Source: Halisarca cf. caerulea (lineage: Eukaryota; Porifera; Demospongiae; Chondrillida; Halisarcidae). From it: DNA of 64,000 nt. Positions 44,221 to 55,702 of this stretch are shown here, one piece after another. The number at the start of each line of letters is the position of its first letter. Position 1 is the first letter of the stretch. The position numbers and the translations under genes were made by a program. The notes under the pieces were generated by a model, which saw nothing but the letters and a program-made list of their open reading frames with translations, was not told the DNA's origin and searched no databases. The stretch lies in contig CAUJGJ010000125.1 of assembly GCA_963170055.1 (NCBI GenBank), positions 1,047,501-1,111,500 on the forward strand, in the 5' to 3' direction.

Positions 44221-47200
44221 ATGGCTAATAAGCGTACTCCAGATTCGGCTTCAAATCAAGACCGGCCCGCAAAGCAGCCACAATCTTCCGAAATCTTTCT
44301 TACAGAGGATAAAAGAGAATACCACAGACAGCACGAAATCCTCTACAGGCGTGTTGGTGGTTTGTGCTCTCACTGTCAAGCTCCGACTTCTGGTGGCAAC
44401 GAGAATATTGGACGTCCGGTTGTTCTGAAAAAGAGGCTCCCTGACGGCAAACGCACCGCTGAGTACTTAGATCTGATTTGGCTCTGCAAGGTTTGTCACG
44501 AGGAGGCTAAGAAGATGAATCTTAGCGAGAAAGATCTGTTGGAGTGGAAGAAGGAAGGAGAGGAGAAAGCGTACAAGCACATGCATCCGAACGAGTCGCA
44601 GGTTGGTTTTCATTTGTTTTAATTGAAAGTAAAAATTAAATTGTAACAAGTTGTGTATTAATGTAAAAGGGGTAATTCGGACAGCTAGGATAATTTGGAA
44701 CAGTGCCTTTAACTTTTGCTAGGCCATCGACACTGCTTTGTGACTGACTGTGTTCCAGTTTACCCTTATTAGCCTACTACTGGTATAATAGTTTATAGTC
44801 TCTAATAGGCAAACCACAGTATCACCTCCTTTATTTGAGGACTGGTGACGTAGTCCCCCGAATAAAGAAGGTGATATTGCGGTCTGGCTATGCGAGACTA
44901 ACCGGTATACATGGTGGATTTGACTGTGTTTTATCGTTCAATTGGACAGATAACACATGTCACAATTTTTCATCAAACAATTATTCAGTCGCACAATATT
45001 TCGCCCACTTGGGCTTCTTCAGGTACACACAGAAGTCCAAATAAGCGAAACGTTGCACAATTGAATAATCGTTTGATGAAGAATTGTGACATGCGTAATC
45101 TGTCCAAAGATGAAACACATCCTAATCGATCAGGCATGTCAAAGAATTTCTACAATCATACCACATGGTGGATTCCTCAGCATATGCAGTGCCGGATTGT
45201 TAATTGAGAATGGCATTGTATATACAGTATATTGTGGTGATTATATCAAATGGATGGTGTATATCATAATGGTATGAATATGTTGGTTACCGTATAGGTG
45301 CTAATTCTGCAGGGTGTATGTTTCGCGAATGGAGAGCTTGCATGGCTGTAATTCACGATTTTAGTTTCCCCAATGGACTAGTCCCCACTACATATATATC
45401 TTAGACAAACATTCTATGAATCTAACCAAATATTCGCAGTACGTTGCTGGAATTTTCGTGAATGCACGGGGGGTGCTGGTGGCTTAGTGGGCTACTGATG
45501 TGACTACAGAGCATGTGTTATGGGATGGATTGAGGTCCAATCCTACATATGGTGTCTTTGGCCTTTTTTCTCTGCACCCCCCTGCCACCACCAAGAAAGA
45601 AGAGTGAAGATGGCCCACTACAGCCACCAAAACAGATGATGAACATTGCATGATTTAACATTTGACAGTAACAATTAATTAGTATGTATGTTTGTTTGTG
45701 TGTTGATTGTGTATTTGTAACCAATTACTGGGCCCCCTGAAAAGTAGCCTTTGAGCTAAGTGGGTGTCCCAGTCTAAATAAGATCAATCAAATCAAATCA
45801 AATCAAATCAATCAAATGCAGCCTCATTCACGAAATTCGCAAAAATAAAGTCCCGCGAAAATCACCGCCTATATGGCACAAATGAATAATGTATAATATG
45901 GTTTATATATGGTGGTTGTACCAAATGGATGTGTCAGGTCAATAAAAATAAAACCATTCTCACCATTGTGTGTTCATTGATTATCATAACATAATATATG
46001 AGTGTGTTGAATAATGTGTGTGTACCAGGGATTCTTGACATAATAGTAGAAACCTAGACTAACTGCAGACTTACACATATCACATATAATGAGTACACTA
46101 CGTTGTTATTGTGAATCTCTGCTATATTATTATCATAATTTATTACTAGATGTACGCAAAGTGCAGTACTCGCAAGACAGTGCGTGCATGGTCGACATCG
46201 ACATCACATACACATGACTGTCACGTGGCAGAACATGTCGACTGAGATGGCTGACCAATTCGCAGCCCCAAACAAAATAGTCAGAACTCTGCCAAATTAA
46301 AGCAAAGACAATTTCCACAAACAATTAATTTAAAAAAGTCGTCCCGAGATATGGCCAAGTTCTGTGCTTTAATGCATCGGTTGCTTTTCTACAATAGAGC
46401 TATACCGTATTCTCTCTAAAAACTCATTAGGGTCTGTGCACGGAAAAATTCGTCAGTCAATTAGAATAGAGTAGAAAAGGCAGTAGAATTCAGACCTGAC
46501 GAAAATATAGAATATTTTGACAAATTTTTAGAATTGTGACGAATATTTAAAGAGGTATTGGCTCGATCCTGCTTGCCGAAAAAATGGCTGCGTTTCAGCT
46601 TATACTGTTTCAACCGCTGTTCGCGGATATCACGTCTACAAGGATGTTTGGTTTCCAGAACTTGCTGAAACCTTCCATTGTCAACAGGACACCAACAATA
46701 AACATGATAGGTACGCTGTCTCCGTGTTTGTGAGCGCTGCTGCCCTTGAAACTGTTGGCCATCTTCCACGGGAAATTTTGAAGGTGTGCTTTTATTTTTT
46801 ACAACACAACGGCTCTATTCACGGGGAAGTATCTGGCGCAAAAGGAGTCTCTGCACCACTTGAGCCATATTGCCTGAATCATCCATTGCTGAACTATGCA
46901 CACGAGGTATAACAAAGGAGTTAACAAAAGAATTGTCTCAAAAGGAATCAAAAGAATAGATTTCCAAGCCACGGGGCAGAGGTGACCAAATAATATTAGT
47001 GCACCTTCCGGAGATGACGAAAATTAGAGTCACGTGACGAAAATTGGAAAGAAGGAAGTTTGTCAGGGTTAGAATGGTACACGGAAAATTTGCCTGACGA
47101 ATAATAGGGGTATCGAATTTTTAGAGAGAATACGGTATTCGGCACTAGGAAGCAGAAAGTGAGTTTTTATTTCTCTAAATAGCTAAGTTTTAGTTGAACC

Positions 47201-53432: not shown

Positions 53433-55702
53433 ATGAGCAAGAAAGATCAACGAGATGACTTCAATCCTCGGGTAATATATATGTTATACACAAGAGCAGG
53501 AGGCCTTTGCTCCATTTGTAAACGCCCAACGTTCGGTCCCGCAAAAACCTCTGATCCTACGTCAAGAAAGCCTTTCACTATAGGAGAAGCGGCCCATATC
53601 TGCGCGGCTGCAGAAGGTGGCCCTCGCTACGACCGCGACATGACCGCCAACGAGCGCACAGGAAGCCAAAACGGAATGTGGTTGTGCGTTGCTTGTCACA
53701 GGCAGATTGATCGAGATCCGGAGTCCTATTCTAAAGAATGTTTACGTGAAAAGAAGCAGAAAGCCGAAAAGAGCGCTGAGGACAGGGTTGGAATGAACCC
53801 CGAGGTAGGAGTGAGAGATGCTAAATGATCCTCATGCGTGTTTATTGTAATAGATACTACAACTATCTATGATTGTACTATGATATCTGCTTTTCCCCTC
53901 GAAAAATACTCTATACTAGTACATTAGCAGGCATATATTGCAGCTACATAATATATAGTCCTTGTCGCGGGGGGTCCCCACACACACTTTTGAGATAAGG
54001 ATAATAGGAGATATAACTTTCGTAACCAGTGCATACCCGTTCATAATAGAGACCCCCACTTTTTTGGAGCTGCCGTCACTCCTGCTTGCATACATGTACA
54101 CCAAATACTAATTGAACATGCAGGACCATGCATGTGGACTAGGTATATATTATTGATGTATGAAAAGATTTATACATCCATGTATTGCATTTGTATGGGT
54201 GCAACACACATACATGCACCACCACCATCACTGGGGAGAGTATTGACCTTGCCTGCTCTGGGGGTAGGTCCCAACTTGATGCTAACTGAGACCCCATTTA
54301 CGTGTATCCGGATACCTTTATAAACACATCCTTCTGAAAGTGTTTACAACTTATTTACACAAATACGATCGAAACGATCAATGTATGCATAATTTTATAG
54401 AGTATCCACTTAGGCGTTTTCGTATAAGTAGTCCGTGTAAACGTCTTCAAACGTATGCGTTCACAAGGGTATCCGGATATGTGTAAATGGGGCCTCAGAT
54501 TTAATTATAATCTACTATTGACACTATTATAGGATTGCTACTTCCTTTTTCTGTTTAGTGCTGTTACTTATGCGACTATTTTGTGGATATTCGTAGTAAC
54601 TGTATTCTATTCATGGAAAAAACGTACATGCAGGCACACAGGCACACACACACACACACACACACACACACACACACACACACACACAGGCACACACACA
54701 CACACACACACACACACACACACACACACACACACACACACACACACACACACAGGCATGTATAATATAGCAAGAGTAATGTGCTTGCGTTTTACAGCTA
54801 TTGTGCACCACATGGTCAAAACCAAAATGTATATAAAGTAAGATATAATTTACCAGTTGACAAAATTTAATATTATCTTGATGTACTAATTAATATAGGA
54901 AGGTTCTACATAGTGTAAACATCAATAATTGTACATTATGTTTTTGTGGTTTCTGCATTTACAGGAATTGAAGATGGGGAATTCTGAAGTACAAAAAGTT
55001 CTTGATGGACAGGCTATTTATAGAATTCGACTAGCAGAAAACAGGATTTCTGCAAAAATGGAGAGTACATTAGTAAAGCAGGTGATAGACGAAGTAGCCT
55101 TTCTCGAATTTGATTCCTATCACATTCGTGTTTGGTTAGAGCTAACAGCTTTTTATGCTAAATTGGCCTCGGTAACGCCTGGCTACAGTAGTGCAAAGGA
55201 TCTGTTCTTCATCTGGAATAATGTCCTTCGTAGCTTAGACAACATTGTATCGAAAGAATCAAATCCTGCAAATATAGAAAGACTCCTAGAGAATGTACTC
55301 GCCACCATGGATGGAATCAGAGAACACAGCAAACAATGTTCTACTGAGGACCAGAAATTTTTATTAAAATCATTGGGCCCTTTCTATAAGAAACTCACTA
55401 AACTAGTCCCACAGAAAAAGGATGTCATTTCATGTAAAATTCCTCTTTTAAAAGGACTAGTGAGAAGCCCCTCCCCTTCCCAGCCAATGGACACAGATTC
55501 CTCCCCCTGGATTATCAAACCAGAGTCAACTGGCAGTTTTTCACAACTGCCTTCCCAACCTAGACAAGGTGCAAGTGAGGCAGATAAAGAAGTAGACCAG
55601 TTCTTTGATTTCCTGGCCAAGCTATGTGCTACAAGTGATCAGATGGAAGTAGGGGAGCGGAAGAAGTGGGAAACAAAGGGTTATACCTTTCAAGTGCAAT
55701 GA
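53433..55702 (+). CDS. HNH-domain protein 2, H-N-H residues intact
   Basis: Exon 1 (53433-53804, 124 codons) is an HNH/treble-clef domain of the type widespread in bacterial restriction and defence-associated proteins. C26 and C29 (GGLCSICKRPTFGP) and C85 and C88 (MWLCVACHRQID) should bind zinc; GEAAHI supplies H55, GGPRYDRDMTANER is the family linker, and N80 and H89 complete H-N-H. Exon 2 (54965-55702) adds 245 aa: a helical region of about 140 residues (VKQVIDEVAFLEFDSYHIRV, LFFIWNNVLRSLDNI), then Pro/Ser-rich sequence with KPESTG, then a short helix. Total 369 aa. The second domain is unrecognised but aligns with gene 1. Likely a nuclease or nuclease-derived DNA-binding protein; partner and trigger unknown. 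No signal peptide or membrane helix. Confidence 0.75.
54286..54498. mobile_element. 213-bp MITE in the intron of HNH-like gene 2
   Basis: Inverted ends CTGAGACCCCATTTACGTGT and ACATATCCGG...TGGGGCCTCAG (arms about 30 nt, both containing TATCCGGATA). The interior holds GATCGAAACGATC and CGTTTTCG motifs. No coding capacity. Confidence 0.75.
54631..54755. repeat. (AC)n microsatellite in the intron of HNH-like gene 2
   Basis: Pure AC tracts separated by single G insertions (AGGCAC). Confidence 0.95.

Follow-up and report, generated by a model that had tools for sequence, protein, structure and literature searches.

A 64,000-nucleotide stretch of the genome of the sponge Halisarca cf. caerulea (contig CAUJGJ010000125.1, positions 1,047,501 to 1,111,500; here called the window) carries two forward-strand genes, gene 1 and gene 2, whose first exons encode HNH-type domains (Table 1). 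An earlier interpretation made from the DNA letters alone (the sequence-only reading) had described both as animal genes built on a bacterial defense-type HNH domain followed by a helical region and a Ser/Pro-rich tail. Much of the described architecture was recovered here: an ATG opens each gene, a stop at 55702 ends gene 2, HNH/treble-clef type sequence is present in both first exons, the exon junctions of both genes are in phase 0, and the tail motifs PESTG, ESTKP, and ESTG are present.

Gene 2 encodes a complete HNH nuclease domain. Residues C26, C29, H55, N80, C85, C88, H89, and D93 were all present in the alignment, and the catalytic site was intact both there and in all five relatives examined. 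The best PADLOC profile was PDC-M68A (E value, 5e-24; profile positions 5 to 112 of 253). Against HNH_2 (PF13391; gathering cutoff, 21 bits), the domain scored 22.6 bits with exon 1 as the query and 22.2 bits in the genome search. In Pfam, exon 1 matched no HNH family of the repair type. No chain named ZRANB3, which we take to be represented in the PDB, was among the eight PDB sequences matched up to an E value of 10, with no direct comparison run. Profile, sequence, and modeled-fold matches support grouping the gene 2 HNH with bacterial defense-type HNH domains. That part of the sequence-only reading is supported for gene 2; in the gene 1 domain, the alignment shows none of the three catalytic residues (His, Asn, and Asp).

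The predicted product of gene 2 (369 amino acids) was identical, letter for letter, to a protein database entry, P0001 (2368-nucleotide contig, 6 members). A second entry, P0002, is an open reading frame (ORF) of the genomic contig and covers only exon 2 of the gene. Since P0001 spans both exons while the genomic ORF has exon 2 alone, splicing as modeled is very likely. The simplest reading is that P0001 derives from a spliced transcript, because ORFs called on genomic DNA would break off where the intron begins.

Behind the HNH domain, the structure model of gene 2 predicts a helical solenoid (protein residues ~123 to 281), then a disordered Ser/Pro tail with the PESTG motif and two C-terminal helices. 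We predict that this second domain is an ARM/HEAT-like solenoid. The sequence-only reading had found that it matched nothing known, and no family scored above the curated cutoff in Pfam or NCBIfam. PADLOC searches with P0002, P0025, and P0039 returned nothing under 0.005 (best, PDC-M70A, 0.0058). No death fold was among the 50 listed structural neighbors of either model, a result that excludes nothing. We also considered whether the second domain had been carried over from bacterial HNH proteins; this was not supported, the best outside-family score among the fetched proteins being an E value of 0.27.

Gene 1 is a diverged relative. The first exons of the two genes resemble each other more than chance allows (28/98 identical; E value for the two-sequence comparison, 3e-8; none of 500 shuffles reached the score). 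The gene 1 HNH retains the four zinc Cys residues and the last His, and its catalytic His/Asn/Asp are replaced by Val/Asp/Lys; judged from these substitutions, it is a predicted dead nuclease. Exon 1 had no match above cutoff in Pfam and weak profile matches to PADLOC PtuB1 (0.0014) and to TIGR02646 (0.023, far below its own cutoff). The exon 2 regions were not convincingly similar pairwise (for the core, 18 of 500 shuffles were as good; for the tail, the E value was 0.004), so the proposed common architecture is borne out in exon 1 but not by pairwise comparison of exon 2. Nor is gene 1 a single open gene: its exon 2 in this assembly starts in one reading frame, which stays open up to ~48290, and continues in a different frame as far as 48955. 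An unbroken counterpart, P0025 (300 amino acids), exists in another public contig (1.39 Mb, ENA), so the break reflects either allelic variation or a mistake in the assembly. Three overlapping protein database searches (20 of 1503, 4 of 5, and 17 of 5865 candidates) gave no transcript-like protein of gene 1 among their matches, and for this reason we can only infer its splicing. Within the putative intron lie long poly-G and poly-C tracts (47554 to 47591, 47803 to 47822, and 47846 to 47863), which are possible assembly trouble spots. It also holds a dispersed repeat of ~350 bp (45468 to 45818) with at least 39 further genome copies at 83 to 97% identity (40 of 1212 candidates scored) and a HIRAN-like ORF on the plus strand (46532 to 46912; Pfam E value, 0.00023; 21.4 bits, below the cutoff of 24.7).

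A search of the 194-Mb genome matched gene 2 once and gene 1 once (the exon 2 of the latter as two pieces, one per frame) and returned no HNH_2 match other than gene 2. The sensitivity of this search was limited: the gene 2 HNH query missed the gene 1 HNH, and a query with the relative P0029 found both first exons (gene 1 only at 0.417) and neither exon 2. Distant paralogues may therefore be unseen. Related genes do exist in the protein database, where relatives with the same second domain were found (e.g., P0029 and P0025). P0029 (1.05-Mb contig) carries the HNH and helical domains in a single ORF, P0021 (590-kb contig) has 60% of exon 1 in common and reads on into an intron at that position, and P0039 (2.1-Mb contig) is a more distant gene 1-type exon 2 (47% identity across 42% of the query). 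Three further entries, P0026, P0027, and P0028, are close copies of an HNH-plus-helical protein in separate clusters, and on this ground the family seems to be multicopy in at least one source. After the family members, the best six database matches (P0004 to P0009; 39 to 50% identity) look bacterial. Among viral contigs, 22 of 32 stretches found with the HNH alignment encode an HNH relative; with P0029, nine stretches matched a pattern and none was confirmed.

Table 1. Features of the two HNH genes and of the DNA around them (window positions)
Feature	Position	Strand	Basis
Gene 2 exon 1, complete HNH nuclease domain	53433..53804	+	ATG 53433; profile, PDB-sequence, and modeled-fold matches; alignment
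Gene 2 intron, phase 0, GT..AG	53805..54964	+	P0001 reads across
Gene 2 exon 2, predicted helical solenoid, disordered Ser/Pro tail, two C-terminal helices	54965..55702	+	Translation; structure model
Gene 1 exon 1, degenerate HNH (treble-clef) domain	44221..44601	+	Translation, pairwise test, alignment
Gene 1 putative intron, GT..AG, phase 0	44602..48065	+	Holds dispersed repeat and HIRAN-like ORF
Gene 1 exon 2, helical domain and ESTG/ESTKP tail, frame broken near 48290	48066..48955	+	Unbroken relative P0025
NDUFB7 first exon, ordinary mitochondrial gene between both HNH genes	51697..51860 (approximate)	+	Pfam NDUF_B7 3.7e-27
Possible polyadenylation signal AATAAA, downstream of gene 2	55918..55923	+	

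The HNH genes sit in a contig with host genes. Contamination was rejected as an explanation, given the NDUFB7 exon between them, the adjoining transporter-like array, and the intron of gene 2. That array consists of similar multihelix membrane-protein ORFs (7489 to 43005 and 43611 to 44126), mostly on the minus strand with one pair on the plus strand, and lies head to head with gene 1; its ORF at 43611 to 44126 matches Aa_trans (9e-7), and two other scanned array ORFs match nothing. A PIF1-like helicase exon (3.7e-45) with an N-terminal LRR1 PH-type match (8.3e-15) lies at 3733 to 4881 on the minus strand. A cathepsin search gave 31 matches; of 30 loci examined for the active site typical of silicateins, the nine rows listed, some of which repeat one place, all carry the usual Cys, which speaks neither for nor against a sponge.

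To place the HNH domain among its relatives, a tree of 75 rows was built. Rows shorter than 85 residues were omitted beforehand, including the gene 1 HNH, for which the profile matched 44 residues; so were 15 named rows that were short or near copies, some of which had already dropped out. The label eukaryote-like was given on the basis of sequence features and possession of the common second domain; organism names played no part. The eight rows so labeled fell into two groups next to rows of bacterial type, their union in one clade was not rejected (approximately unbiased test, p-AU 0.324), and few branches were supported at that depth. Across 36 bacterial loci, the HNH-bearing frames ranged from 177 to 1494 residues in 34, with shorter frames in L046 and L049, and in two database proteins a different domain lies behind the HNH (CTD10 in P0010, EAD7 in P0013). 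This spread of lengths and C-terminal domains fits a portable effector domain. L046 (AP019514.1, Halomonas sulfidaeris) is probably a broken or frameshifted HNH copy, since the frame from the match start stops after 19 codons though tblastn matches residues 4 to 119. Horizontal transfer, suggested earlier for the genes as an old event, is likely for the HNH domain, in one or more events and with bacterial capture the likeliest source. GC content was considered as a sign of recent transfer and says little: gene 2 exon 1 has 50.3%, a level that 1.8% of windows reach, and the window as a whole has 41.1%, but five other coding-type ORFs in the window are at 42 to 49%.

How the gene 2 protein might work can be proposed by analogy. 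In the reading that we prefer, and to which we give about an even chance, gene 2 is a captured defense-effector-type HNH fused to a lineage-specific solenoid and acts as a gated DNA endonuclease with a defense outcome. An animal lineage would have captured a metal-dependent DNA endonuclease HNH of the type seen in Cap5 of the cyclic oligonucleotide-based antiphage signaling system (CBASS) and in ABC three-component HNH proteins. This domain would then have been fused, via a phase 0 intron, to the ARM/HEAT-like solenoid and disordered Ser/Pro tail. The solenoid may bind a partner or trigger and so gate the HNH, much as the C-terminal sensor of Cap5 switches its N-terminal HNH on; passages of the Cap5 report propose that movement of this sensor activates the HNH for DNA degradation (PMC8568899). 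The nuclease could then cut foreign or damaged DNA, or an infected cell could have its own DNA cleaved. Gene 1, as a diverged paralogue with a zinc fold and no catalytic site, might serve, if it is made at all, as a regulatory or decoy partner. That the locus amounts to an animal innate immune nuclease system, in which an antiphage HNH, a new helical sensor, and a linked dead paralogue setting the threshold turn nucleic acid sensing into DNA destruction, seems unlikely to us at present.

Several observations weigh against the gated-nuclease proposal. The whole gene 2 protein scores 20 bits, just below the HNH_2 cutoff. Its second domain matched the family profile at an E value of only 1.9 (hhalign, 0.026), and for that reason its membership in the second-domain family rests on position, fold class, and tail. 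Structural matches of the solenoid were at, or little above, the level common for helical models, and gene 1 is frame-broken in this assembly. No immune gene was among the seven neighboring ORFs of the window scanned with Pfam (6 of the 66 long ORFs and one shorter ORF; the scan was not systematic). A genome-wide search for SAVED gave no match, but its control was equally silent, so the result is uninformative. HNH_2 proteins also occur in fungi and other eukaryotes outside the sampling used here, so that a nonbacterial immediate source is possible.

The last point bears on a competing account, in our view improbable, in which another eukaryote passed the HNH on (a fungal HNH_2 protein being one example) or the domain was inherited vertically and lost elsewhere. 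The tree base of the eukaryote-like rows is unresolved, as this account allows, and HNH_2 proteins occur in fungi; the bacterial look of P0004 to P0009 and the lack of a second HNH_2 match in the genome argue against it. A stronger competitor, possible though well short of an even chance, is that a captured bacterial-type HNH serves ordinary DNA metabolism (repair, replication stress, or clearance of ingested or symbiont DNA), with the solenoid as a scaffold. The retained catalytic sites are compatible with such a role, and the structural neighbors include ARM/HEAT-like DNA repair and nuclear transport proteins (the Fanconi ID complex, importins, and ATR-ATRIP). However, these helical-repeat matches are unspecific, and the HNH profile matches are to defense-effector models rather than to a repair-type family. 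HNH domains are common in mobile elements, and the close copies P0026 to P0028 from another source would suit a domesticated or resident element using a homing-type nuclease. We regard this as very unlikely: each gene has a single match in the genome, where near copies should appear, gene 2 has an intron, and the best profiles are defense effectors, not homing enzymes.

In the literature found, judged by titles and the starts of abstracts of mostly top-ranked results, an HNH of the gene 2 type has not been described as an animal gene, and the term HNH is absent from the main texts of PMC11249213, PMC13142454, and PMC10732462. The gated-nuclease reading can be set against known systems. CBASS Cap5 shares with gene 2 an N-terminal HNH with catalytic His and zinc Cys, residues of which gene 1 lacks the catalytic set. 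However, Cap5 has a SAVED domain where gene 2 has a predicted helical solenoid: no SAVED was found in Pfam for gene 2 exon 2, the whole protein, or P0002, or in PADLOC for P0002, and no CD-NTase was among the seven ORFs of the same unsystematic scan. The ABC three-component type (PDC-M68A/HNH-CTD10; P0010) offers the best HNH profile and a helical region behind the HNH. P0010 spans profile positions 1 to 251 and carries CTD10, whereas the gene 2 match stops at 112 of 253, and Pfam found no CTD domain in P0001, P0003, P0029, P0002, P0025, P0039, P0026 to P0028, or P0030. HNH proteins with an effector-associated domain (EAD), such as P0013, have the same HNH type and a C-terminal adaptor, but gene 2 and its relatives carry no EAD above cutoff (EAD9 in P0027, 0.032, is below it). 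Septu PtuB and retron-associated HNH proteins resemble gene 1 exon 1 through its weak PtuB1 and TIGR02646 matches, but the latter is far under cutoff and the catalytic residues are lost.

Eukaryotic immune genes of bacterial origin (CD-NTases, STING, viperin, and TRADD-N) offer a parallel of another kind, in that a bacterial conflict-system domain is reused in animals. Passages of PMC8195603 list HNH as one effector domain of bacterial conflict systems, trace several animal apoptosis and immunity domains to such systems, and describe TRADD-N expansions in Amphimedon; in the sponge Oscarella, part of PMC10732462 places an eSMODS CD-NTase within a bacterial clade. HNH nucleases are effectors in bacterial antiphage systems, several other modules of which persist in animal immunity. 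Should gene 2 prove to encode a working DNase under such gating, the set of bacterial defense parts reused by animals would gain a nuclease arm, and the pairing of an active gene with a dead one makes gating directly testable.
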